64,000 nt of DNA from Mycosarcoma maydis (Eukaryota; Basidiomycota; Ustilaginomycetes; Ustilaginales): the NCBI RefSeq assembly GCF_000328475.2, contig NC_026493.1:248001-312000 (forward strand). Reading direction: 5' to 3'. Made by a program: the position numbers and the translations under genes. Under the pieces are notes generated by a model. It worked only from the letters and a program-made list of their open reading frames with translations. It ran no database searches and had not been told where the DNA came from. Position 1 is the first letter of the stretch, and every line of letters starts with the position of its first letter. This document shows positions 8,385-53,943 of this stretch, one piece after another.

Positions 8385-11300
8385 CGTGTGTTGTAGAGAT
8401 GCAGATCACGAAACAAAGGGAACGGGCGTGGGGTCAAGGCGAGAAGAGGAGAAGACAATGCTGCAAAGATACACTTGCGAGGGTCGGAGGTGAAAAAAGA
8501 CAGAGGAAGGTGAGGTTGAGTTGATGGTGGTGACCGTGACGTAAAAGAGAGGAGCAGAAAGACTCGTCAACACAAAACCTGCTTGTGCTTTGAGACAGAA
8601 ATGTTTGCACAGCCGAGGGCTTGCTTGTGCGCAGACGGGGACAGAAGATGATAGAGGGGAGGCAGTGGGGACGGGGATGGAGAGGAAGGAGGAGAGGGAG
8701 GGAGGGAGGAGAGGATATGTATCAATCGACAGGGAGGCAGGCGGGCGGGAGAAACTGAAGCGGCGGCTTGTGAGCGGGCAGCGGCAACAGACAGCAGCGG
8801 TGCAAGGGGCTCACCATGCCGCATGGCGTCGATCCTTTCACAGAGACGCGAGACGGGCTTGAACTACAAACAGTGTCGATCTCGTGGGCGCAGGCAACAG
8901 GCTCAAGGTTGTGGTCTCGAGCAACAACTTTGAGTGCGCCGATCTTGATGCAATTTCTGAGGCTGGTCATTGACAAATTTGGGCGACAGGCGCAGACGAG
9001 GGCGGTGCAGCATCAAGACGTCGCCGACGTTGTGTGCGCAGAAGAGAGGCATTTCTTGCATACCAGCGTTAAAGAGGGCGGAACCAAGATGCAACGGAGC
9101 TTCTCAAAAAAGAGGTGTTGTACAAATCGTGAATGTGCACAGAAGGCTGAGCTGGCAGTCGCATCTGCACAGGACGCCGTGATGCTGCAGTTAGTTAGTG
9201 AGTGCGCTGGCTGAGCTTGATCAAACTCGCCCAGCAAGAAGAGGATCGTGCCGAGTGCCTGTCCCGCCTGCCGCTGTGTTGGCAATGTTTGCAGATGCCA
9301 TCCTGTGTTTGACAGCACCAAAACGCGTCTGCCTCTTTGGTTTTCAATTTGACATTCACGATTCGTGATTGAGCGTTTTGACCTTGCTCCTGGAAAGCTG
9401 ACTTAGTCTCGGCTGACACTGGCTCGTGTCTCTCGCTAAGTTATTTCGATTTCATGATAAGCACCATGTTCATGATGAACCAACACAAAAATGAGCCCGA
9501 CGTGTGACCACGAGGCCCTAGCATCGTTCACAGAGACCCTGAACATGTTTGACGCTGGGTCCAGTCGGTACCAGCATTAGTCTGACATGTCTAACTGCCG
9601 TGTCCAGATCCAGATCGTTAGTCAGCGCAGGGAAATTTACGGTTGTAGGTCTGTGGTCGTGGATGCGTGTCGTCCACGGTCCGCTGAATTGAAGTGTGCA
9701 CGGCAGCAAAGCATCTTGTGAGCTACCGGCATAATTTTCGCCGGCGGCAAAGGTCCAGTAGTCACATAGGGAAGAGGCGTATCGTCGTCATGCACGCAGG
9801 ACCACTGGACTGCCACTCCAAAGAGGTGCGGCACAATCAAGAACCGAGCGCCGTGAGGCTCTGGAAGGGATCGCAGACATGCTCGGCAGACCAAGTTAAC
9901 TAAACATGAGTGGCCAAAATGGGGTTCATCAAGAATCACGAATGCGACTTGCGTCTCTCAGTCAATCCGTGCATCTTACGTCCGATAGAAGTCACGAGCC
10001 TTGAAAGACGAGATGATCGCCGATGAGATCTTTCCTGCTGCAATCGATCTGAGTAAGTACTGCCCTGATTCCCACGTGGCGGTTACCTCGAAGGTGCAGT
10101 TCGCGTGGGTTGATTTTTGTCGATCGATGCCCTGATGTGACTGATACTGAGAGGCTGGACCGGGGTCAAGACTGGCCCGAGTCGCTTGTGTTAGCAGGCG
10201 GAGATCCATGTTGGTTCGCTGCACAACTGTGACAGCGGGAGTTGAACGTCTTGATGGTACCTTGACACATGTAAATTTTGCTTGCCTCCTGAAGAAACCC
10301 TTGCTGGTGAAGACATTGCGATGCTCATGTCTCGTCCGATCCCAATCCCTGCAAGCGAAGACGATTGAGCAGGATATAGAGGACGAGTTTGGGCATCAGC
10401 TCGACGGGATGCACGGAAACGCGGTGAGGCGCACGCCGTTGAATTTGAACCATGCTTTGTCTCCGTCTCGCTTGAAGATCGAAAGCGCCGCCGACGTTTT
10501 TCGGAGCCCGATCATCATGCGCGGTCTTCTCTAGGGTGAGAAACTTGCTACATTGCCTTGAAACCCAGGGAGGGCATTTGACATTATGCTCACATTGTTG
10601 TTACGCCAAAGTTCGAGCTACGAGCCTTGAACGGCATTGGCGAGGTGCGCCCTGAGCACGACACAGATGAGCAATCGACCCTGCTTCTGGAGACACCACG
10701 TGCGTCGACCCGGCTTGCTTTGATCTTCACAAACCATTTCGAGACTTGCGAGGTTTCACAGACTCGGCACGGACTCAGCGCCGTGCACAATGGCTGTTTG
10801 TTGCCCAAGACATTCATCCGCTCGTCGGAGAATAGAGGAGCAAGGGAGGCGCGTTCATCTGCTTTGTTTGCTACGCAGGGTGTCGCAGCCTCGGTCGTGG
10901 GTGCTTTCGTGGATTGACAGGTGCTGACACGCTTGCAGCACCATTCACGATTCATATTTGTTCCTCCTCGCTGTTGCCAGCTGTGAGTGTTACTCTCGGC
11001 TTGCGATGCAGCCTGTGAATCTACCTCTGGTCTGGTGAATGCATTTGTTCTGTTCACGTTGCGAGGCTCTAGGTGTGTGTCGATTAGGGTCGCTTTCTGT
11101 CCGCTGAAAATCGACTTGGTCAAAAGAGCCGAACGCCGGCTTTGAGCCGCTGTAAGCTACTCTGTCCAGGAACCTTTTCTTGATTGTGGCAGCCTCTGAC
11201 GCTTGGGCTTGACGGGCACTTAGACACGGCGGACGAAGTTTGAAAGATAATCACGAAATAGAAAATTCAAATTATGATTCTGATTCTGATTCTGATACTG

Positions 11301-18900: not shown

Positions 18901-21639
18901 CAGTCGCGATCTTTGAGCGCCCGAGTCGATCGCCACGGTGAAGGTGACGGAACGCCTTTCAGTGCAGTTTCGACTACCGGCTCGCTGAGACACCTGTTGA
19001 CCAAGTGGGCATCTCGCTACATCACTGCCATTCTCCGTGTCGGACCTGGCGATCCATACTTTGACGATGACGAACCGGTCCAAAAGGAATCTTGGCCTTG
19101 GCCAGCGTCCAACCTCTTACCCCCCGAAGCCTACCACGCCTTCCGCAAGCCGCTGGATCGACTCAAGTACGGTGGCTACGAAGTCGATCTCGTTGGCGTC
19201 CGAAGGCAGAGCCCCACCGAACGCGACTACATCATACGTCTTCGACGCCCCAATGCGCCCGATCAGTACGTAGTACGCAACGATAATGACTTTGAAGAGT
19301 ACCGACGCAACCTTGTCCAGGATCTGAGTCCGTTCGCCTTTGTCAAGCCTCTGCCCCGTACACACGGTTTTCCAGACGAAGGTGAGAGCGATGTTGAGGA
19401 CATCAGTCCTTACGGCTCCGGCTCGGAGCGCTCTGCCAGGTTCAATGCAGCTGGTCTGGGCTCTGCTGCGCTGTTCAAGGCGCCAGCCGGACGCAGTTCG
19501 CCAGAAGGAAGAGGCTTGCGTGGAGGTGGACGCGATGGCCGAAGACGCTACAGCTCTGCCAAACAAAACGGACGACGTGTCTTGGGCCGCGACGCGGGTC
19601 GCGATGCTCCCTCGGAGTACGAAAGCGATGTGTTCGAAGACACCGCAGATGAGCGCTATGTGGATGAAGACGATGATCGGTCCGAAGCTACGCTGCAGCC
19701 GAGGCGTGGTCTTCCGCGCACCGGAGGTCGCGGCGACCAAGATGGAGGTACGCGTAAAAGCCGAACCCCTCTGCTCGACAAGGGTAAAGGCTCCTTGCGC
19801 CGTCTTACAGGCAAGGATTCTCAGCCCAACTCGCGCAACAGTTCTCTCCGACGAAAGGATGGGTCCAAAGGATCACAGCGCCGACCTTACGCTGGTCGCG
19901 TTCCGCTTGCTCCCGCGGCTGCCGCTGGCAAGCTCGAGCGCGCCAACGGCTCGTTGCGTCGGCCTCCCGCTGCCGGCGCGATGGACTTTGATGCTAGACG
20001 CAACAAGCTGCGAAGCTGGTTGCGCGACACGCTCGCTGTTCGTGAATCGGGCCACGCTAACGAAACGCAAAATTTCCTCATCATCGGTGGCTTCACCGAA
20101 CGCCACCTGCGGCGCAGCGACTATGAAGACATTCAAGAGCGACACAGAGAGGACAGGCTTCGTCGACGGGAGCATGAGCGAGATGCGGCCGAAGCGGGCG
20201 ATGACGTCCACGACCTCCGCGAGGTGCGCGACGAGATCTGGTTCGACTGCGTCGAAGGGGATGGCTTCCTCAAGATGTACGATGCGCTTCGCGAGACGCC
20301 AGACTACGCACGCTTGCCGCTGGGATACCAGAAGATGGTCTCGTGGGGCAATTTGCAGGTTGCACGCTGGTTGTACGGCGTCTTTGTTGCAGGTGACGAG
20401 TCTCGCGCCAATCTGGCAAGGATGCAGGACGTCTACGAGTCGGTGCCCTGGAAAAAACTCGCATTTGCGATGAAGTCGCCTGTGGGCCAGATGTTGCGTA
20501 CTTGGAGGGACCAGTTCCTGCGACGAAGCTTCCTGCAGTCGATGCTCCACATCATGCTCGAAGACGAACCCGAGACGATCGAAGAGGACTTGTCCGAGCT
20601 GCGTCGATTGATCGGGTCGGAAGTTATGTTTCAAAAGCTACGTGTGTTTGTTAACTCGCCGGACGACCTCAAGCGTCTCATCCGACAGCACGCGGAGAAG
20701 GAGGAGGTTCCGCTTGTCGCTGCCATCGTTCGTGGTTCGGAGCAGCCCAAGCTGAACAAGGTCGAAGTACAGCGTGTTATGGATGCTACGCAGTCTTACC
20801 AGGCATTCATGAAGACGCTTCCTTCGATTACCAAGAAGAACAATTACACGGACCCGGGCTACCGTCTTATCGTTGACCTTCAGCGGACGTTGCGTTTGCT
20901 CTCTCTTCAGCGCGATGGTGCGCAAGTTCGGGGTATGCTGCAGGATCCTGTCATCGCCGACGCGCTTTCCATCGCGTTTGAGCCGCTGATGGAAGAGGTG
21001 AGGCGTCTGCACAAGGTCACAGGGGTGGGGAATGCCGTGATGGACCTTCAAGCCTTCCTTGGACGACTGCTGGATCACCTGACTGGCCTGCGTGCTCGCG
21101 TGATGGATCCTCTGCACGCCGTCAACGGCATCGCCGAAATCCTCGATGATGCCGCACCTTCGTGGTATAAATTCCTTCGTTCGGCAGCCGATTCTACGCC
21201 TACTGTGTTCAGCTTCTTCGCCTGGTTCCGTCATTTGGCTATGACAATTGGAGCGGGCACGGATGATCTTTCCCGTATCTGGACCAACCCTCCCGCGTCT
21301 GGCGCTGAAGACGATGCTGGAACGGAAGGCGGTCAATCGATGGATCCGAATCGCGTGCCTGATTACGAGGGCGCTCTGGACGCTGATACGATGCGCGATA
21401 TCAACTCGCTCGCCGAGCACGGCCGTAGGAAGCGTAATCGACAGATGGAAGTGGCGTGTAGGTGGGCGGCAGGCGACACGGAGGAGCACCATCCGATTCA
21501 GATCCAGGGCGACGGCAAAGGTAGAACAAGGACGGAACCTTACTTGCCGAGAGAGACGAGGCCGCCGAGGAGGGCGCCCGGTCTGGACAGATTCAGAAAG
21601 TCGTTCCGCGAAGCTGTGTCGAGTGCTCTTGCTCGTTGA
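16000..21639 (+). CDS. Giant PX-domain protein with PX-associated (PXB/PXC, DUF3818-type) domains
   Basis: A single 1879-residue frame starting at the ATG at 16000. Residues 1-810 are largely disordered: a strongly acidic stretch (about 75-160), basic patches, an Ala/Gly-rich segment (AAGGALGGLAAMIGF, about 455) and a Lys-rich run (about 630-645). A PX-associated B-type domain starts near 817 (LSPQQTHYFLRELSLREL) and runs to about 990. A PX-like domain spans about 1042-1110 (YEVDLVGVRRQ, IIRLRRP). After another charged linker comes a C-terminal helical domain at about 1327-1766 (FLIIGGFTERHLRR, WFRHLAMTIGAG). This layout matches fungal proteins related to yeast YPR097W, a phosphoinositide-binding PX protein linked to lipid traffic. 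The much longer N-terminus is the main difference. Domain names rest on remembered motifs, not a search. Confidence 0.8.
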   Translation: MRRPYVEPGHRSARPGIRHRFRDQGPDRKGRDPHTLTSNREGGRPARLASEGETDQDDFYSDNDEQGFVTQTDENAVTANEDVDSEEEDDDLDDDDLLDDREEEQEEARSARSVTRARPAPAIRGAYVNEQDDEDDGDDDDDDDEDEDEDDNDRDVATPRNHSRSNLAATPHGRPRAYSRSNKLAPEEEDWALKGEAKRRKGGVFGRLKRLGRKSKGTDEATVQSRQGANADVVLGRSYGAVRELRSRKSHLGQRLDPIAPNRTHDRASSRRGAAAAAISSGVAAGTAQSTRLGGSSRSTSDFDSELGTARPGSHIRARQPPSVIASDDGTDLARTDGMPLESSDVPPRTPTPIALRDTENARSPQLVDPYAAPVVATEAHGRSKSMTESVQPSVLDVSDAASVIPPSSPLIPVSGPLSHNDAVVPSQRASMQSVRDNEIDEETMSRSRKPSMDLRAAAGGALGGLAAMIGFDALREKKNGLPPKDEPISIALGLTAPDETVAPNAAATSTAAAETAIPAASLEPGTTASDVTMLPRRNRRKSSKASVLPGVADEELAPVAAGGRVDAEDPSELPYVVDDQAAEDKPAPAPAPAIAAPLAVGAGLGSLAAATGIATGSARDGEDAKDKGKKKKSKKNKKKKTQALADEEPVLAVANAAPASGHSETVVVDSAPATRAAIVPAVNSEATKARDYGVQPSVTDGSEFAMTDDQVEPPSVIEPLGEKRGYTQRDLPAAAVPVAGAGAASRRSKSQKLAKGSRGVEKLAAVNEDSFVYRRDIPAPQKGRYLLTPSVAPSVADPLDAGRIRTANSKGYWLTQDLSPQQTHYFLRELSLRELRWELDRAWLLTSFEKPHRPTRRAPKNFSEVEDDSRINDFDESSDEDLLAIDEDEDEEAVFRRGTQLGMLYSQPTIPDLPLLRFLFKNAFCTFPLFVAPEDKVNQYLGGPPDKATLARDYFLHGILPLLRAFQSRSLSARVDRHGEGDGTPFSAVSTTGSLRHLLTKWASRYITAILRVGPGDPYFDDDEPVQKESWPWPASNLLPPEAYHAFRKPLDRLKYGGYEVDLVGVRRQSPTERDYIIRLRRPNAPDQYVVRNDNDFEEYRRNLVQDLSPFAFVKPLPRTHGFPDEGESDVEDISPYGSGSERSARFNAAGLGSAALFKAPAGRSSPEGRGLRGGGRDGRRRYSSAKQNGRRVLGRDAGRDAPSEYESDVFEDTADERYVDEDDDRSEATLQPRRGLPRTGGRGDQDGGTRKSRTPLLDKGKGSLRRLTGKDSQPNSRNSSLRRKDGSKGSQRRPYAGRVPLAPAAAAGKLERANGSLRRPPAAGAMDFDARRNKLRSWLRDTLAVRESGHANETQNFLIIGGFTERHLRRSDYEDIQERHREDRLRRREHERDAAEAGDDVHDLREVRDEIWFDCVEGDGFLKMYDALRETPDYARLPLGYQKMVSWGNLQVARWLYGVFVAGDESRANLARMQDVYESVPWKKLAFAMKSPVGQMLRTWRDQFLRRSFLQSMLHIMLEDEPETIEEDLSELRRLIGSEVMFQKLRVFVNSPDDLKRLIRQHAEKEEVPLVAAIVRGSEQPKLNKVEVQRVMDATQSYQAFMKTLPSITKKNNYTDPGYRLIVDLQRTLRLLSLQRDGAQVRGMLQDPVIADALSIAFEPLMEEVRRLHKVTGVGNAVMDLQAFLGRLLDHLTGLRARVMDPLHAVNGIAEILDDAAPSWYKFLRSAADSTPTVFSFFAWFRHLAMTIGAGTDDLSRIWTNPPASGAEDDAGTEGGQSMDPNRVPDYEGALDADTMRDINSLAEHGRRKRNRQMEVACRWAAGDTEEHHPIQIQGDGKGRTRTEPYLPRETRPPRRAPGLDRFRKSFREAVSSALAR

Positions 21640-24600
21640 CGCTCGTGACTGCTGCTGCGGCCGTAGATACAGTTATGGACACTGCTTTCAAGCCCAACCT
21701 TAAATTTACATGGACAGTTTACAGAACAACACTTTACTCTCTTTTTCTCCCACTACTTTCTTTTGACTTGACGCTCTTGGCCATGTATATACTCGTGCTC
21801 CATGTTTCGTGTGAATAGGTAGGATTTGCAATGCTCGTTTCGGATTATCTAGTAAAGGGTTTTTTGTGAGCATGATTCGTGGTGGCGATGGCAGTCACGT
21901 TTGGATCAAGTATGGTGGGTACATAGCCGTGAAATCGCAGAACGTGGCGGAGGCGTGGAGGTGGGTTGGTTGTGTTAGGCCGCGTTGTTGCACATGCACC
22001 CCCGCACTGATACGCACGCCATGCACATGTGGCATATGTTACGGCAAGTGAGAGTTGCTTAAATGACCCGCTTTTTTGCTTCTAATAAATTCGTGATTCA
22101 CGATGTATGTGCATATCGAAGCACGAAGTCAAGAGTTTGATAAATCGGGAATACTTCAGCTCACTCGTGACTCCGACCTGAAACTGTCCTCGCTCAATAT
22201 GTGGTGAGTCGGACGAGAAAGACCCGACGAAGCATGACGTACGAGACCTTATCACGAAGAATTTCAGGCCATAAGGTCTCGGCGTAGAGAGTACATTCCA
22301 GATTTGGTGCCACTGTTGACTCACAGACGAGTTGTGTCTAGCGCGGGATTCAGGGTTTGCACATGTGGAGATGGGGTGTTCGGTGAAACATGCACTGGCA
22401 TGTCAGGTCACATCGAACATTTTGATTTGGGAACACGGTCGTGGGTCACATGATTCGTGATTGTGTTGAAATGCTTGTAAAGGGAAGGCTCTGACGGCAA
22501 AGCCAAAGTCTGCGAATAGCGGTAGAGGATGTCAGGGCTGAAACGCAGCGATGTGCTCCTTGGGTGAATCGACTAAAGAACGCTGCAATGTAGATGGAAA
22601 CAACAAACTGAGGATGCTGCATCCATGATCGTGCAAAGTCTGTAACAAAACCTGTGCAGAGTCCACCGAGGTCAATGGAGGCACTGAGCCTAAACTTTCA
22701 ACGTAGCGCAAGGGAGGCAATCAATCACGAATACTTCTGCATTTATCGACCGACTTGTTCAGGCTAGCACGGCCGAATGACGAATTGCGAATCGCGATGC
22801 TGAGGCTGTAGTTGCTGCGCTCTGAAGCTCGACATTCACGATTGGAGAACTTCCATGGGCAAGTCGATTCCATTTAGCTCAAGCTACCACCTGGTCGATC
22901 ATGGTCAAGACAACCTCGATCGACTCTCACTTAAGCTTCAAGATGTGCTGATATTTCAACACCATGTTCGTCACCAACGACGGACGAGTTGGATCTAAGC
23001 GCATTGCGCAAGTTGCACGACAATCACGAGCTGCAACAGCACAGCAACATTTGCACGCAACGACAAGCCTGACTCGACCAACGAAATGAATGTGGGGCGA
23101 ACCAAACAGTGATCTTCAGAATCGTGGATGGGTTCTGCGCATTTCAAGTTCGCTAATCGTGTGCCAGAAGATGTGTGTTGCGGAATCCAAAGATGTCAAG
23201 GTTCGCGCTCCACTTTCCTCCTTCAGAGCAGTCTTGAGTGCACAATCATGAATCGTGAATTCACCGATGCACCGATTCTCCGATTCTCCGATGTGGCGAT
23301 GAAATGACGTCTCTCGGGCGTCTTCAGAATCATGAACAGGTTGGTTATCAAGAAGTTCTCACGCTTAAGGCTTCGCTCCTTTCCGGCGTTGCAACGGGTT
23401 CGAGCAATCACGAATAAAGAATCACGAATCTGGCGTCATTTCGAATCCTGGCCAAGACACGGGGCAAGGTACGAGCCGAAGGATACAAGGTCGCTGAGAA
23501 ATTGGCCGCTGGAAACTCGCGTTCCTCGCCGAGTGCGCTAGTTACTTTGCTCAGTGACACCACGCTAATGATACAAAGGAACGCCGCATAATTTATTGCG
23601 TGAATTATCAGCTCGCTTCGGCAACAAGAGGAGATGGGTATGATTCTGGCATAATAGAGTCAATGATCGAAGGCAACCGAGCCGAAAACGGCAACGATTT
23701 CTGTGCTTGAACCCTGCAACCTGTTGGCGATGCAGGTCCAAGCGTTCTTTTGTTCCTTACACACGCTAGACACTCAGCACGTTGGTGCCGAACAGAGAGC
23801 CTTTCCTTTGCCTGTCCGAATACTCGTGAATATGCTGCACAGTTCTACATAGAGTGTCATCGAGGCTGACCTCCATAGATCCGGTCACGAGCTTGACGGC
23901 TCGCAGAAGCCGCTTACTCCCAAGCAGCACGACTTGTTGGCATCACGACAGCATCCGCGCTACGCTTTCAAGCGCCGAAGAGCACGCTGCACAAGAAGCG
24001 GGTCATCCGACCCAGTGGCGTTCCAGGCTGGCTGAACACTTGCAGACGAGTTGGGTCGATGATGAGAGAAAACGAGCGCACGCTGCACTCACGCCTTGCG
24101 TCCGATGAAACACTGTTGCTCGAAAAAAACGTGTGCGGTATTCTAACTTTAATGGACATGGACCAGAGCAATACACGATTTGCCAAGCGCTCCTCCAGTG
24201 ATGATCCGGCCGTCGATAGCTTCAGTCATCAACCCCAGATGCGGTGTTGCCTTTCCGACTACTGTGCCAGACTGCTTCGGAGGAGCGACATGGCAACCAC
24301 GGGGGCCGAGTCTGTGTCAAATGGGCTCTACCACCCTATGCTGAAAACTAACTATAACTTATCGTAATTCGTGATTCGGCAACGACACTTTTCCCAAGCC
24401 CGTTGAAAGTCCGCTTGCTGTAGCGTTGCCATTTCTCTGCAGTTTCGAATTCCTACATTCGTGATTCTTGATTGATCCAGACCCAAACAGGCTTCCATGG
24501 ATAGCAAAGGCTTGAGGTTGCTGGCATTCACCAAGGGGGCAAGGGAAAAAGCAGCCTCCTTGCCTGACGATCATCCAGCCTTGATCAGCAGCCGCCGCTG

Positions 24601-26524
24601 ACCTTTTCCCCTTGCCACTCCGCCTTTGTGTGCTGCAATACAAGAAGGCTTCTTTCGATTGATCGACTCAACCCCTGTATTTACTCCTTTGTCGAGTATA
24701 AAGTTTGATCCGCTTTGCCGCCACTGCCAAGTCTCTTGAGTACCACTTTCAGATCAAGGGGGCTGAATGGGTGCTCGCCTGCGTTCAACCTTGTGGTTGA
24801 TCTTGAGCCTTTCTTTCTCCACCACAACGATTTGCCTGTACTCAGTTATCCTGATCATACTGTAGAAGCTTACATACATACAGGCTTGTGCGGCAGCAGA
24901 CCAACGGAGTCTTGAACAGCCATGGAACATACAAGTCAAGGGTGAACGAGATGTATCGAGTTCGAAGCCCTGACTAAGTTAGTCAAGCTACGCACTTGCA
25001 TAGCAAATGCAGCTTTGCGTGGATTTCAAAATTCCCCCCCTCCCCCCCAGCCAAGACAAAAAACGCCCGGCTTTCTCACGGTGGCTGTCACGCTGCTAAA
25101 TTCACGATTATATTTAATTTAATCCGTCGGATGGAGTGTGGCAAAATAAAAATAAAAACCCAAGTCACACAGGTTCCTCGGCCATGCCCCAGCTACTATC
25201 CCTCCTGTGCGGCGTTTTCAATATTTTTTCAGTCTGTATTCCTATGATGTCTCATTATTAAATTGGATGAGAGTTAAGTTTGTCAGGCGGAGGATGACGG
25301 GTTAACACAGCCTGTTTCACACCGTGAACCGCTAGTAAAACGACAAGTACAGTATGGCGCTCATGCCTCTTGCATGCCTCCGTGCCGTTCTCCCACACTA
25401 ACCTGAATGAGAGCAAGTCAAGGTGAGCTTCAGTTTGTAATTGATTTGTATCTGCGCCTCTGCCTTGAAACCTTGCTTGGATCTCGCTTTGCCTTCCCCT
25501 TTTTGACTTGGTTCGTCCCTCTGTCTGCCTTGTTTGACGACGAACACCTGGTGCATACATCCTGTGGATCGTCACACCTTGACTGCGCAATTCGATTAGT
25601 CAACAAGCTCTTCCATTGTGCCCTTGTCCTGTGCTTTGTCGCCTTGCTTTCGCATCCATCCTGTATTTTAAAACAAAACAAAAACTAAATCTTATAATTC
25701 TTATTTGTTTCGAATGGCAAGCAACCGACTTGGAGCGATCGTCAGCAGACATTCGCGATTGCCCTTACTGCTATTCTATTGCGCCGCACATCGAACACAC
25801 CGACACGGCCACTCTACCCGGCACATTCACGATTGCTTACAGACGGCGCCGGGAATGCAAGGGCTGGTGGCCCCCTATGGTTTCTCTTGTTTTGTGCGTG
25901 CGCTACGCCCTCGGTCACGATAGATTATGTTGACATGCCGTTCGTTGCCTCCTCTCGCGCGTCTTGCGCAATCGCTCGAATTCGTCATCATGTTCAGCTT
26001 CATGCTTCGTTTCTAGCTGCTCTACCAACATATCTTATAGCTCTCTCCCGGCACTGTGTGAGCCGATAGAATCCACACACAATCCTAAATGCTCTCTTCC
26101 CCTGCCTGAATGGCGCTGCCGCACCAGTGACCGCGTTTATTCTCAACTTCCCGCTCCCTTGGCGCTCGTCCCCCTTGCCTCACCTTGGGCTGGCTGGCGT
26201 GCCTACCTCGGTGATGCACCTCGCTTCTCTCGCTTCTCCGGGCTGGCTTCTATTTGCTCCTGTGAGGAACGGCATCTCGTTGCACTGAATGGCATTGCAT
26301 CGCATGCCAGTTGACCTCGGCTGTGTTTCAGCTTATAAGCAAGCCTGATTCTCAGGCACCGTTCTATGTTGTTCACGTCGATCCAGCCTATCTCTATCCT
26401 TTTAACCACCATCGTCACCAACCTCTTATATCTTTCTCTCCCTCTTAGTCTACCAGATCGGCTTTGCTGTTGTGATCACTAGTTCAACCGTCGACTCCCC
26501 CGACATTGTCACCTGGACTACATA
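21640..26524. other. 4.9-kb gene desert upstream of the repeat-peptide gene
   Basis: No intact gene recognised on either strand; all frames are short and mostly lack ATG starts. TCGTGA/TTCACGA words are scattered (22090, 22450, 23250, 23408, 24368, 25102, 25824). A TATAAA at about 24698 has no obvious gene behind it. A C-rich run lies near 25037-25050. The frame starting VIEADLHRSGHELDG near 23858 reads protein-like for about 60 residues but could be chance. Long unmarked DNA beside a secreted repeat protein is common in effector-type regions. Confidence 0.5.
26334..26339 (+). promoter_or_regulatory. TATA-like element of the repeat-peptide gene
   Basis: TATAAG, 186 bp before the ATG at 26525. 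A second candidate (CTTATATC) lies at about 26425. A CT-rich leader follows, as in highly transcribed fungal genes. Assignment is inferred from position. Confidence 0.4.
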
Positions 26525-27418
26525 ATGCAGTTCAAAGCTTCTGTGTTGTTGATGGGTCTGGCCGCTGCTGGCCTCGCCGCCGCTGCCCCGGCGACCGTCG
26601 CCGACACTCCCGCCGCCCCCGCCGCTGTAGAGCGCGACAACGGTGCTCCCGCTGCCGATTGGGGCAACCAACCTATTAAGCAATGGTCGTACAAGCGCGA
26701 CAACACCGACCCGGCTGCTGTTGAGCGCGACAATGGCGCTCCCGCTGGTGACTGGGGCAACCAGCCTATTAAGCAGTGGTCTTACAAGCGCGACAATGGC
26801 GCCCCCGCTGGTGACTGGGGCAACCAGCCTATTAAGCAGTGGTCTTACAAGCGCGACAATGGCGCCCCCGCTGGTGACTGGGGCAACCAGCCTATTAAGC
26901 AGTGGTCTTACAAGCGCGACAATGGCGCCCCCGCTGGTGACTGGGGCAACCAGCCTATTAAGCAGTGGTCTTACAAGCGCGACAATGGCGCCCCCGCTGG
27001 TGACTGGGGCAACCAGCCTATTAAGCAGTGGTCTTACAAGCGCGACAATGGCGCCCCCGCTGGTGACTGGGGCAACCAGCCTATTAAGCAGTGGTCTTAC
27101 AAGCGCGACAATGGCGCCCCCGCTGGTGACTGGGGCAACCAGCCTATTAAGCAGTGGTCTTACAAGCGCGACAATGGCGCCCCTGCTGGCGACTGGGGCA
27201 ACCAGCCCAACAAGCAATGGTCGTACAAGCGCGACAACGGCGCCCCTGCTGGCGACTGGGGCAACCAGCCCAACAAGCAGTGGTCGTACAAGCGCGACAA
27301 CGGCGCCCCTGCTGGCGACTGGGGCAACCAGCCCAACAAGCAATGGTCGTACAAGCGCGACAACGGCGCCCCTGCTGGCGACTGGGGCAACCAGCCCGAC
27401 AAGCAGTGGTCCTACTAG
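26525..27418 (+). CDS. Secreted Kex2-processed tandem-repeat peptide precursor (KEP)
   Basis: A 297-residue precursor. Residues 1 to about 20 are a signal peptide (MQFKASVLLMGLAAAGLAAA). A short leader ending AVER precedes twelve copies of a 19-residue unit, DNGAPAGDWGNQPIKQWSY, most followed by KR. Unit 1 has AAD for AGD and is followed by a 10-residue spacer (DNTDPAAVER). Units 2-8 read PIK, 9-11 PNK and 12 PDK. The last unit ends at WSY then stop, so no KR is needed there. KR is the Kex2 site, so the likely products are about twelve near-identical secreted 19-mers. U. maydis Rep1 (repellent) and the repetitive secreted proteins Hum3/Rsp1 share this design; RiPP precursors such as UstA also do. 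I cannot assign orthology. No UstYa-like (DUF3328) modifying gene is seen in the window. Confidence 0.9.
   Translation: MQFKASVLLMGLAAAGLAAAAPATVADTPAAPAAVERDNGAPAADWGNQPIKQWSYKRDNTDPAAVERDNGAPAGDWGNQPIKQWSYKRDNGAPAGDWGNQPIKQWSYKRDNGAPAGDWGNQPIKQWSYKRDNGAPAGDWGNQPIKQWSYKRDNGAPAGDWGNQPIKQWSYKRDNGAPAGDWGNQPIKQWSYKRDNGAPAGDWGNQPIKQWSYKRDNGAPAGDWGNQPNKQWSYKRDNGAPAGDWGNQPNKQWSYKRDNGAPAGDWGNQPNKQWSYKRDNGAPAGDWGNQPDKQWSY
26636..27415 (+). repeat. 63-bp tandem repeat array encoding the KR-separated peptides
   Basis: Unit 1 is 26636-26698, a 30-bp spacer is 26699-26728, units 2-11 are 26729-27358 and the truncated unit 12 (57 bp, no KR codons) is 27359-27415. Units 2-8 are near-identical at the DNA level (GCCCCCGCTGGTGAC type). 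Units 9-12 form a second subfamily (GCCCCTGCTGGCGAC type, AAC/GAC for ATT). This indicates recent unequal exchange or gene conversion within two blocks. Confidence 0.95.
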
Positions 27419-28114
27419 ATTTGACGAACAAACGAAAGAATAAAGCTGGTTGTGCTTCGTTTTAGTTTGCATTTGACTTTCCTGTTTGCAGCGTCATAGC
27501 TTGGTTTCCTTGGTACCTGCCGCCCGCATACCACCATGCTTCCTTGTTTGTAGATCTTGTCACGGGCTTTCCTTATCACAGAGTTAGCCCGACCGCGTGG
27601 AGGCTGGACCCTTCCCATCAGGCGGCTCGGTCGATTCAAAGTCGCTCCTCCGTTGCTGCTCTCTTTCCTCACTCTCTTTTTGTACTCTGCAGTTAGTCGG
27701 GTCGAAATCCTAACACGTTTTGATCCCTCTCCCGCTTTCATTGCTTGGTCGATTCGCGCGGCGCAAGCCGTCATCAACGCAGACCCAATCGCTGCGCAAA
27801 GCGTGAATCTGTTTCGACAGGGTCTAAAGCCGGTGAGATGAAGATGAATAGAAGGGTTGAGACGTGAGGCCGATGATGCGAGAGTCTTGCGAGTTGATCG
27901 TGATAGATGAGGGAATGAGCTGGTGAGCCAAGTCTTGCGTGTGGCGCCGATACTGGGTACGCAATTGCGAATTTTGTGTCAAGAGCGATATGCGGGACTC
28001 GGCGGCTTACTCCACCAAGAAAAAGTCGCATTCGCTCTGTGCGCTGGACGGTTATGTGTTGCTTTGACTGTTGTCGCGTTCAAGTGGCCTGCAACGAGTT
28101 GGTGACAGCTGAAG
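27419..28114. other. Intergenic
   Basis: Holds the 3' region of the repeat-peptide gene and the promoter of GPI8. No further gene, TTCACGA word or repeat array was seen. Confidence 0.55.
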
Positions 28115-29326: not shown

Positions 29327-30776
29327 TCAATTACAAATGTTTATCGACAATTCGTGATTGCGAAAAACTTCAGACACTCTCAGCGTGATGCGCAGCAAGG
29401 CAACAGTGTGACTTGAACTGCTGGCAAGATGGCACCTTGATTAAGAACAGCGGCACAGATAGACATGCATTTGCATAGGCTCATGTAGAAATCAGGCCGA
29501 CAGAACAAGGCGAGAAGGAGAGAGAGGCAGGCAAAGCCAACTAACCGAGGCATTGTACTCGTTCTGCAGACAGCGAGGCGGATGCGGCGCACCTGGCCGA
29601 TCTCCAGCTGCGACCAGCACGCAAGGGTTGGAGCATCAACGCGAAAAGACTCACCTTGGCCGAGTTGACATGCACGTGTTAACTTTGTGCTCCAAATCCT
29701 TGGCCCATTGCGAGAGTTGCGGGTGAGACCGTTCCAGCTAGCACTTGGCTCATCGAGAGATTGAGACGGCAACGCAAGATCTCATTGGGTTGCCTTGGTA
29801 GAAGGTCGGCGTTGCGCCTGACCGATGGTCTTTCACGGGCAAGCGGATGAGCCCCGATACAGTCGATTGCTTCTGGCCGGCCTGTGAAGGTATCGGCAGA
29901 TTTGTCTAGAGAGACTGCACGTCAACACGCACTCGAGCCAGTGCCGGAAGCTGAGAGAAGCACATCTCGACCAGTCGAGATCCTGTGAGGCGAAACCACA
30001 GTGAAGCTAGGCGGATGCCAAAGCGGAACAAGAGCAACAGGGGGCTTCAGACAAACACTGTCAGGCTGCAGGGACGACTTTGCAAACAGCCAAACGGCTA
30101 TGCAATGCCACAACCCAAAAGCTCTGTGCAACACTGCAACAAGAAACTGCGAGACACGTCAACATCACCTTTTAGGCCACTGGTAGGATTGCCTTTGGGT
30201 CGATCCATTGCAAAAGACGACCAATCGACCGACCGAAGTTTCACGATATTTTTTGCTCAGAGACCTAGGATCCAAGGCGCGTGTGGTCGTACGAGCCAGA
30301 ATAAGCCGACATTGGAGGGCTGGGGAAGCGACGTCATTGTGGATGGGTAGACGGTGGACCGAACCAGGAGATGCCTTTTCCACTTTCACGCGGGAACTTG
30401 CTGGTCGGAAGGAGCTTGTTTTTCGGCGATGGAAGAGCGATTCGTGGAATGCAGCCAGTAAGAGCCGTTTGGACCGTCAATGATAGAAGACACAGATGGC
30501 GTGGGAACTAAAATTGCTTGCAAAGAGCTGGAAACCGTCGTCATCATCGTAATACGCGGTGAGGGTTGGGCCAGGAGAGCCAAAGACGTGCGATGAATCT
30601 TGCGCAAGAGACCCGATGGGGCTAGTCGAAAGAAAACGGGAAGCAGCTGAAGAGCCAGAATGACGAAAACATGGTACACGAAACAAAGAATACATGGAAA
30701 AGGTTGACGATCAAAAGAGGTAGCCCTCTGCCTGGATGGCGTGCAGTTTCGGAGAAATGAACACCTATTGAAACGA
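29327..30776. other. Intergenic between GPI8 and the SR protein (convergent)
   Basis: 1.45 kb without a recognised gene. One small minus-strand frame with a signal-like N-terminus (29553-29380) is listed as a candidate. A TCGTGAT word lies at 29352. Confidence 0.5.
29380..29553 (-). CDS. Candidate small Cys-containing secreted peptide (doubtful)
   Basis: A 57-residue frame from ATG 29553, beginning MPRLVGFACLSLLLALF, which looks like a signal peptide, followed by a short tail with several Cys (CKC, CAA, CCAS). No Kozak, TATA or homology evidence is available, and it overlaps what should be the 3' flank of GPI8 in antisense. It is listed only because a hydrophobic start plus Cys is the usual form of small effectors. 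It could equally be chance. Confidence 0.15.
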   Translation of the reverse strand: MPRLVGFACLSLLLALFCRPDFYMSLCKCMSICAAVLNQGAILPAVQVTLLPCCASR

Positions 30777-31801
30777 TCAGTTGTCACGAGGACGAGGGAC
30801 GTCGTCATCGTCACGATGAGGAACGGGGCTTCGGCTGTCATAGCGGCCGTTGCGCTCGGGGACAGGCTCGCGACTGTCTTGGCGGTCGCGGGGCTCATGG
30901 CTGTCATCACGTCGACGAGGAGGGGGGCTGTCATCGCGACGACGAGGAGGAGGGCTGCGCTCGCGGAATNNNNNNNNNNNNNNNNNNNNNNNNNNNNNNN
31001 NNNNNNNNNNNNNNNNNNNNNNNNNNNNNNNNNNNNNNNNNNNNNNNNNNNNNNNNNNNNNNNNNNNNNCAGGAGGAGGGCTGCGCTCGCGATCATCGCG
31101 AGATGGACGAGCAGGGTCAATGCGGAGCTTGTAGCCACGGAGCTCGATGCCTTCGATCTTGTCGAGGGCACGCTCGTAGTCGTCACGGTTGTCGTACTCA
31201 ATGACGCCCTCTTCGGGACGGGAAGCGTCGACGTCGGCGAACGAGACGGCACCGTGCTCACGGCCGATGTCCTTGAGATCCTGCCAGCTCGTGTTGGGAG
31301 GCAGGTTGGAAACGATGCAACGGAATTGGCCGCGGCGGACCCTCGGCTCACGTCGAGGCGCAGGAGGAGCGCCGTAGCGGGAGGAGGGAGCGTCCCTACC
31401 GTAGCTGCTACCACCGCCGGCTCGACGATCGTAGGGGTCGGAGGCATAGCCAGCAGGCTCACGACGACGCTCTGCGCTCTTTGCTTGCTGAACTATGATT
31501 CGCTCGCCCATAAAGTTTTTGCCATCAAAGTCCTTGATGGCATCTTCAGCGTCACGGGGGTGCTCGAACTCGACAAAGCCAAACGTGCCCATGATGCGAA
31601 CATCGTAGAGGCGCTGTAGGAAGAGGGGGAGAGGGGGAGAGAGGAAAGAGAGGTGCCTAGGCGTGAATGAGTCAGAAAGACGCGCATCAATCTGGTTCGT
31701 AAAAAGGGAGGGAGACTTACGCCATAGTCGCGGAAGAGGTCTTCGATGTCAGCACGACGGACATCGGGGGAAAGTTTGCCTACGTAGACTCGAGTGGACA
31801 T
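30777..31801 (-). CDS. SR-type splicing factor, two RRMs plus RS/RD tail (SRSF1/Srp2-like)
   Basis: Two exons: 31801-31721 and 31613-30777, with a 107-bp intron (GTAAGT ... CTACAG, phase 0). Joined, they give RRM1: RVYVGKLSPD (RNP2), then RLYDVRIMGTFGFVEF (RNP1) and a C-terminal IIVQQAK. A Gly/Arg/Tyr linker leads to RRM2 starting FRCIVSNLPPNTSWQDLKD. The SWQDLKD heptad is the hallmark of the SRSF1-type pseudo-RRM. The tail is rich in RERSPPP, RRRDDS and RD repeats, as in SR proteins that bind exonic enhancers and recruit the spliceosome. A 100-N gap lies inside the tail, so its length is unknown. S. pombe Srp2 and yeast Npl3 are the nearest named models. Confidence 0.92.
30970..31069. other. 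Assembly gap (100 N) in the RS-repeat coding region
   Basis: Placeholder-sized gap in the part encoding repeated RERSPPP/RRRDDS units. Both flanks encode the same repeat in the same frame if the gap is exactly 100 bases, but the real number of repeats is unknown. Confidence 0.98.
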
Positions 31802-32084
31802 GATGTGCTGCTGTTGGTAGGGAGATGTGGAATAGGAATAAGTAGGCAGACAAGAAGTGGATAAAGTGATGGAAGGAAGCGAAGCCAGAAGGAGGTAAAG
31901 CACCAGTCGTGAGTCGTGAGTGACGGTGACAGACGCGACAGGGTAAAGTGATTTTAATTCACGTTTATCCCATCGACCCAGCCAGCTCAGCTGCTGCTGC
32001 CTCTGACGCCAAAAGACGTTTGTTGTCAAGACAAAGCCGTTTGCGGGGGGGGTTCACCGTTACGTTTTAGCTTGCGAATCGTGA

Positions 32085-52477: not shown

Positions 52478-53943
52478 GCTGAGTGAGTTCCAGAAGCGGA
52501 CAAGTAGGGTATCTGAGAGGGAACAAGCAGTTGGATCGTGGAGGATGATGACGACGTCGGTGAAGAGGGCAAAGACAGGAAGCCTACACAACAAGCAACA
52601 CACAACCCGCCAGAACAGGAAGGGAAGGCCGTCACGGGCCCGATAGCGATCCGATGGTGTCTGGCGACGTTTTGCGCACCGAGACAGGCTGACTGCCAAT
52701 CACGTTGAGAACATCCGAGGAAATCCAATCGCCATGCACGAGTCGCAGCCACGCTTGGTTTGGATGCGCGACTCGCCTGGGTTGGCCGTTAGCGTCTCGG
52801 AAAAGAGCAGCAACCAGCGTTGATCCTGCGATCCTGGCTCAGGCATGCAAGCACACACAACAAAAGGCTTTGACCGGTGGCATTCGTGGCGTGCGCGCAG
52901 AGCGACCCTGCGGTGATTCACGACGAGTCGTCGGAATGGCGAGTCACTTGGGAGTTGGACGGAACCAAAGCGAACGTGGATTGATGGCAGTCCGAGGGTC
53001 AAAAGTTTCACATTCACAAATCACCGAATCGTGAGTGTGATTCGTGGTTCACGCTTCCTGCGGGAGAGACGGCAAGTTTCGCGCTTGCCGCTGGCAAAGC
53101 ACCAACGGTATTCGTGATTCGCTTCGAACTGGCACCCGTGTTGCAGATCATTCATCACACTAGAAAATTTCTTGGCGTGCATATACACAACATACTCTCG
53201 CATGTCAAACCAACTAAGCACGAAGCCAGCGAAAAGTTGCGAGTTGGTTTCGCTCTGTTCAGCTGCCGTGCCCGTGTCTCGAATGCAGAATACAAGCCCG
53301 AGCCCGCAGTGGGAACCAAAAAGAAGAAATTAAAAAAAAGGAATGTTGCAGCCTCGGGCCTGTCCGCTCAACCACTGCTACTGGACCGCACCGAGAACCC
53401 TGCTCGTCCCTGCGGCTAGGCTTTGAACCGTCACTGCACTGCTGTGCAAGGAGATGAGCCACTCGTGACTGTGTCGCCTTTACTCTGATCATGACTGATC
53501 GCACTGATACAGATCCTTGATTCACGACTGGCGAGGGACTTGATCGAAACAACGTCGGTTCTGCCGATCATGCTTGACAGCACCAAAACAGCCTAGCAAT
53601 CAAGCAGTCAAGCAGTCAAGCAGTCAAGCAGTCAAGCATTCAAGCAGCCAGCACAGCCAGCACAGCGACCGGCTTGCATTCGTGATCCATGGTTCGTGTC
53701 GGCCAATTGATTCAATTCGTGATTCATGATTCACGATTGGGACTGGAGCAGTGTCGCAGAGATGAGCGCAACCGGTTCCGTCGGTGATGCGCCGTGAGAC
53801 CAATTTGGTTGTCTTGTCGGACTGACTCCGTCCAAGTTGAACACTCACAGACTTTGCCTTTATACGTTGGTCGTTATCCCTTTGTGCCACCATCATAGCC
53901 TCACTCTGGACATCCCTACCGTCCTTCAACGCTGCATCACCCC
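52478..53943. promoter_or_regulatory. Divergent region ROT1/KRE6
   Basis: 1.47 kb between the two ATGs. TCGTGA/TTCACG words lie at 53025-53055, 53110-53120 and 53717-53738; a tandem CAAGCAGT run at about 53600-53640. No gene recognised. It must hold both promoters, but no shared element is proven. Confidence 0.45.
53600..53640. repeat. (CAAGCAGT)n tandem repeat
   Basis: Four to five octamers (TCAAGCAG), followed by two CCAGCACAG units, about 300 bp before the KRE6 ATG. Confidence 0.9.

Follow-up and report, generated by a model that had tools for sequence, protein, structure and literature searches.

A conserved Kex2-type repeat precursor gene of Mycosarcoma maydis encoding twelve 19-residue units

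The gene at positions 26525..27418 (+ strand) of the stretch of 64,000 nucleotides analysed here (the window) is a conserved Kex2-type repeat precursor of the fungal KEP class, and its sequence makes it likely that its product is a peptide. We put at roughly 60% the probability that the protein is secreted and Kex2-processed, and that its peptides act outside the cell by recognition. By this scheme the signal peptide would bring the precursor into the secretory pathway, a late-Golgi kexin would cut after each KR, a Kex1-type carboxypeptidase would then trim the KR, and a linear, hydrophilic peptide of 19 residues (DNGAPAGDWGNQP[I/N/D]KQWSY) would be exported from the cell in approximately 10-12 copies. 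We infer cleavage, trimming and secretion by analogy with established Kex2/Kex1 and KEP biology. Once exported, the peptides would function by being recognised, whether as fungal signals or as peptides directed towards the surface of the host, and would not serve as wall material.

The reading frame, called as an ORF and supported by the parse into units and by two relatives (P0001 and P0002), is open over 297 amino acids up to a TAG stop, and an intron is not required. All features below lie on the + strand unless stated. Residues 1-21 (MQFKASVLLMGLAAAGLAAAA; 26525..26587) resemble a signal peptide, with a mean hydropathy of 2.5 at residues 7-15; this assignment was made by inspection, the region is kept in both relatives, and the position of the cut is approximate. 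Residues 22-37 (26588..26635) form a short leader ending in AAVER, a single-Arg junction, and VER or VQR also stands before the first unit of P0002 and P0001. Twelve units of 19 residues occupy 26636-27415: unit 1 (DNGAPAADWGNQPIKQWSY; 26636..26692); then, after a spacer that repeats part of the end of the leader (KRDNTDPAAVER; 26693..26728; 93-base period, 2.0 copies in Tandem Repeats Finder), units 2-8, each of them DNGAPAGDWGNQPIKQWSY, with KR at the joints (26729..27163); units 9-11, also KR-joined (DNGAPAGDWGNQPNKQWSY; 27170..27352); and unit 12 (DNGAPAGDWGNQPDKQWSY; 27359..27415), which runs up to the stop codon. Tandem Repeats Finder reports the array as a 63-base period with 11.0 copies, 97% matches and a score of 1167, the runner-up score within the window (284) belonging to another, overlapping entry for this array. 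By motif match alone, a TATA-like TATAAG lies about 190 bases 5′ of the ATG (26334..26339) and an AATAAA about 20 bases 3′ of the stop (27439..27444). An AlphaFold2 model of the full-length precursor, built from a two-row alignment, has a mean pLDDT of 44.7 and is uninformative on fold. There is also an antisense ORF of 340 amino acids through the array (26450-27472, − strand). It probably arises from the 63-base period, which leaves any stop-free frame open, so that several long frames span the array; we set it aside because signal peptide, relatives and the pattern of synonymous changes all belong to the sense frame.

Amino-acid differences among the units are confined to unit positions 7 and 14, with G7A in unit 1, I14N in units 9-11 and I14D in unit 12. 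KR follows 11 of the 12 units, is encoded every time by AAGCGC, and is followed by DN at all eleven sites. Nine units (3-11) have KR on both sides. The initial annotation had described about twelve copies of one acidic, hydrophilic 19-mer, cut by KR, and this description is confirmed, with a correction. There are indeed twelve units and eleven KR sites, but AAVER, with its single Arg, stands before units 1 and 2 in place of the KR that precedes units 3-12, and unit 12 is bounded by KR and the stop; the first two units may therefore be released in an extended form, or not at all. Similarly, 7/12 units (2-8) are exactly DNGAPAGDWGNQPIKQWSY, but the other five differ from it at one residue. The peptide is hydrophilic (GRAVY -1.32) and its acidity is mild, with a computed charge of -1.2 at pH 7; its computed monoisotopic mass is 2102.945.

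The unit peptide appears to be constrained at the level of codons. Relative to the DNA of the majority unit, unit 1 differs at eight codons, seven of them synonymously, and units 9-12 at six to seven codons, with five to six synonymous changes and one nonsynonymous change each; unit 2 differs by a single synonymous codon and units 3-8 show zero differences. Among the 21 pairs formed by the seven distinct unit sequences, NG86 estimates of dN are 0-0.068, and dS is >1 in ten pairs and undefined in one; with only 57 bases per unit dS is saturated, so that its direction alone is usable. That units 3-8 are identical in DNA points to copying or conversion in the recent past. The synonymous differences of units 1 and 9-12 speak against gene conversion as the cause of the apparent constraint there, an argument that does not apply to units 3-8.

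A search for relatives, as the initial annotation had proposed, found at least two in three rounds of protein searching (approximately 8000 candidates scored per round), the precursor's own protein being absent among the matches listed in all three rounds. P0001, a protein of 177 amino acids on a contig of 1275 bases, matches with 51% identity over 53% of the query (E 1.2e-19). P0002 is a protein of 110 amino acids named 'hypothetical protein NDA13_006417 [Ustilago tritici]' (E 8.7e-22 in a profile search). Both start MQ[FL]K[AS]SILLMG, and both retain the signal peptide, leader, dibasic sites and two-block unit; their leader element is AVERSEP, and the leader in the window has AVER without SEP. 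P0002 has three 18-residue units, DN[GD]APAADYGYDPRQW[AV]Y, and P0001 has four units of varied length, with KR or KKR after every unit in either protein. Just past the start of a fifth unit, residues 133-177 of P0001 depart from the repeat pattern, which may be a genuine tail or the result of a frame change or of an error in the contig. The pattern xP[AS][AG]D[WYF]G-3 to 7-[WY][SAV][YW]K[KR] occurs four times in P0001, three times in P0002 and eleven times in the window precursor, where it misses unit 12 for want of the required KR, and it has zero occurrences in 1000 shuffles of each of the three precursors; having been composed after the sequences were seen, it describes the family and does not test it. 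Across the three precursors the unit has fixed ends, GxPA[AG]D-aromatic-G and aromatic-x-aromatic, and a middle that varies in both sequence and length. Viral contigs contained no relatives. Two queries of the genome gave no second copy, returning the gene itself and one out-of-frame match on contig C21.

These features (a signal-peptide-like start, a leader, twelve units and eleven KR sites, with two relatives built alike) place the gene in the KEP class as defined in PMC6339444 and PMC9769878, in agreement with the plan that the initial annotation had recognised. Like the KEPs of Le Marquer 2019, Umemura 2020 and Vogt 2022, as far as those accounts were available to us, the precursor combines an N-terminal secretion signal (by inspection) with repeats flanked and separated by dibasic sites; its unit sequence is unlike the conserved motifs named in the accessible text of PMC6339444. 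The genome also has a kexin-like gene, an ORF on contig C7 (L008:607-3021) with Peptidase_S8 and P_proprotein domains, the latter the one P_proprotein match in the genome. UMAG_02843 is named as the KEX2 homologue in the part of PMC9767968 that we consulted, a name given apart from the C7 ORF found here.

The gene is not that of Rsp1, whose orthology would have removed its novelty in the terms of the initial annotation. According to the available text of PMC4617103, Rsp1 is a protein of 260 amino acids with putative Kex2 motifs, in which a hydrophilic sequence of 18 or 21 residues is imperfectly repeated eleven times, versus 297 amino acids and twelve units here. An ORF on C21 (L002:1388-2170, about 384913-385695) fits that description, with 260 amino acids and eleven repeats that end in KKR or RKR, except for the last; its units are of the type YDGDIIDETNAALKDLGLKKR, the last three being clearly unlike the first eight. 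The out-of-frame match of the genome search (24% identity, eight stops) falls inside this Rsp1-like ORF, which likewise has a 63-base period. The precursor resembles Rsp1 of the Hum3/Rsp1 pair in its hydrophilic tandem repeats, Kex2-type sites and period, and differs from it in unit sequence and location. In frame, a single BLASTP comparison of the two gave 19% identity and E 4e-04, a value inflated by repetition, since the same four matching residues are counted anew in copy after copy. When single units are compared, four positions are identical in the best circular register (p 0.11 with free shuffling, 0.14 with KR kept), and the cut sites of the two are offset by one residue. The two are different genes, which may still share a very old common origin; judged from these alignments, any kinship is unproven and, at the level of the unit, not significant. 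Because the precursor is distinct from Rsp1, the hum3/rsp1 double-mutant phenotype, as reported in the portion of PMC4617103 at hand, should not be assigned to it.

Given a secreted and processed precursor, a key question is whether the peptides are recognised or instead coat the hypha and assemble as a surface material in the manner of Rep1. Rep1 of U. maydis is a Kex2-cut repeat precursor of the same plan, with amphipathic repeats of 34-55 residues that form amyloid-like fibrils (PMC4617103, in part). A high copy number would suit a bulk product, and the low-confidence structural model places short strands around IKQWSYKR. However, the unit is of 19 residues rather than 34-55, and its GRAVY value of -1.32 bears out the earlier remark that it is unlike the amphipathic Rep1 repeats; we therefore do not count the gene among the Rep1 repellents. 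Conserved ends around a variable middle also speak against a surface material, and we regard this role as unlikely. A recognition role is most likely on the sequence pattern, and is favoured over wall material because two fixed ends bracket a variable middle in all three precursors. A more specific form of this idea, possible but held tentatively, is that the gene belongs to a smut-specific family of secreted ligands, with fixed ends and a fast-changing middle, which would be read by an as yet undiscovered fungal or host receptor. If so, a twelve-copy precursor would supply the smut-plant interface with a second peptide signal, distinct from the pheromones.

It could alternatively be supposed that the repeat protein works uncut, for example in the wall or apoplast in a manner comparable to Rsp3. 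In the sections of PMC5923269 that we consulted, 7/15 U. maydis repeat effectors are not predicted to be Kex2-processed, and the absence of KR before the first two units here would agree with such a role. Against it are the single codon pair at all eleven KR sites, the dibasic sites after every unit in both relatives and the want of a confident fold, the last a weak point given the two-row alignment. A protein that functions whole is thus quite improbable, and release of the peptides remains the preferred reading.

There is little chance that the precursor is a dikaritin-type RiPP precursor with a cyclised core. Dikaritin precursors share the KEP plan (PMC9769878, in part), there are aromatic residues in the unit and DYGIG in P0001 units, and oxidoreductase-type ORFs occur in the window (2OG-Fe(II) oxygenase, FAD oxidoreductase and short-chain dehydrogenase). 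However, these three ORFs lie about 20 kb off on either side with other genes between, and so form no cluster with the precursor; the EDYXI-type core, which PMC6339444 in its accessible part associates with ustiloxins and phomopsins, is absent from all 12 window units; and the genome has no UstYa match, a search for which the control genomes gave no match either.

Least probable of all, and already disfavoured, is a pheromone precursor of alpha-factor type whose product is read by a Ste2-type receptor. Ascomycete alpha-pheromone precursors share the multi-copy Kex2 plan and a short peptide that bears aromatic residues and ends in Tyr, Ste13 signatures do occur in basidiomycete KEPs (PMC6339444, in part), and one P0001 unit reaches p 0.054 against S. 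cerevisiae alpha-factor, the one pheromone compared. Against this, DN rather than the XA or XP of a Ste13 signature follows all 11 KR sites here, the shuffle p is 0.79 for the window unit and 0.48-0.80 for the three remaining units tested, and the genome has a Ste3-type receptor gene (three exon-like pieces on C5) and no Ste2 match, with the control genomes likewise giving none for Ste2.

Two further peptide types were considered and set aside. Qsp1 of Cryptococcus is, like the product proposed here, a secreted basidiomycete signal peptide, with GAP-x-G and an aromatic residue in common; its sequence is given in PMC5959062, and the accounts consulted have it matured by Pqp1 from a secreted precursor, with no mention of a KR repeat array. 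Likeness to the Qsp1 11-mer is not significant (shuffle p 0.06-0.29 over five units), in a comparison in which peptides so short leave little power. Mimicry of plant DYG-type sulfated peptides was also set aside, as the position of the Tyr is taken by Trp in the window and by Phe in 2/4 P0001 units.

The surroundings of the gene offer no recognisable partner adjoining it, and the initial suggestion of an undescribed system gives way to a single gene of a recognised class. A Pfam scan took in 19 of the 31 window ORFs of ≥150 codons, of which 13 match at E 0.001 or better and six have no match; no cluster of modifying enzymes beside the precursor was seen among the ORFs scanned. Matches include a Peptidase_C13 directly downstream of the precursor and, elsewhere, actin, an adaptor subunit, BOP1, SKN1/KRE6 and a glycosyl hydrolase. 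Near the precursor, 23897-24364, 30389-31492 and 31496-32053 have no Pfam match, and the window contains no tRNA or Rfam match. Pfam matches to DUF834, SepRS_C, CoV_NSP15_M and Mfa1 were dismissed as artefacts of repetition or composition: the last three are all below their cut-offs, and DUF834 is above it in the window protein (97.7 bits vs 23), below it in P0002 (16.3 vs 23) and absent in P0001.

The precursor thus belongs to a recognised fungal gene class, and to a family with relatives in other smuts for which no function was found in the literature searched, a search made without the gene's systematic name; four peptide strings likewise had no match there. The functions of KEP-derived peptides are described in PMC9769878, as far as available, as largely unknown, and C. 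cinerea kep knockouts are reported there to have no detectable phenotype. U. maydis KEPs have been catalogued, with 4/5 differentially expressed in a time course of plant infection (PMC6339444, in part). The present gene may be among them, and may already appear in published KEP or secretome lists. The gene is the only copy found in the genome, clear relatives occur in other fungi (one of them a named smut), the peptide is constrained and the host fungus is tractable; together these make it a directly testable KEP family.

Finally, we note two features outside the precursor. Upstream of the precursor is a gap of about 4.9 kb (21637-26524), which may be a long regulatory region; its longest open frame, of 156 codons, has no Pfam match, and no ATG ORF in it is clearly secreted in look. 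The motif ACAAAGGGA, which we take to be the pheromone response element, has no exact match near the precursor and two in the whole window (8413-8421 and 53877-53885), with 0.42 expected and at least two found in 8/100 shuffles. Each of the two sites lies just 5′ of an ORF of cell-wall type, Glyco_hydro_cc for the first and SKN1/KRE6 for the second.
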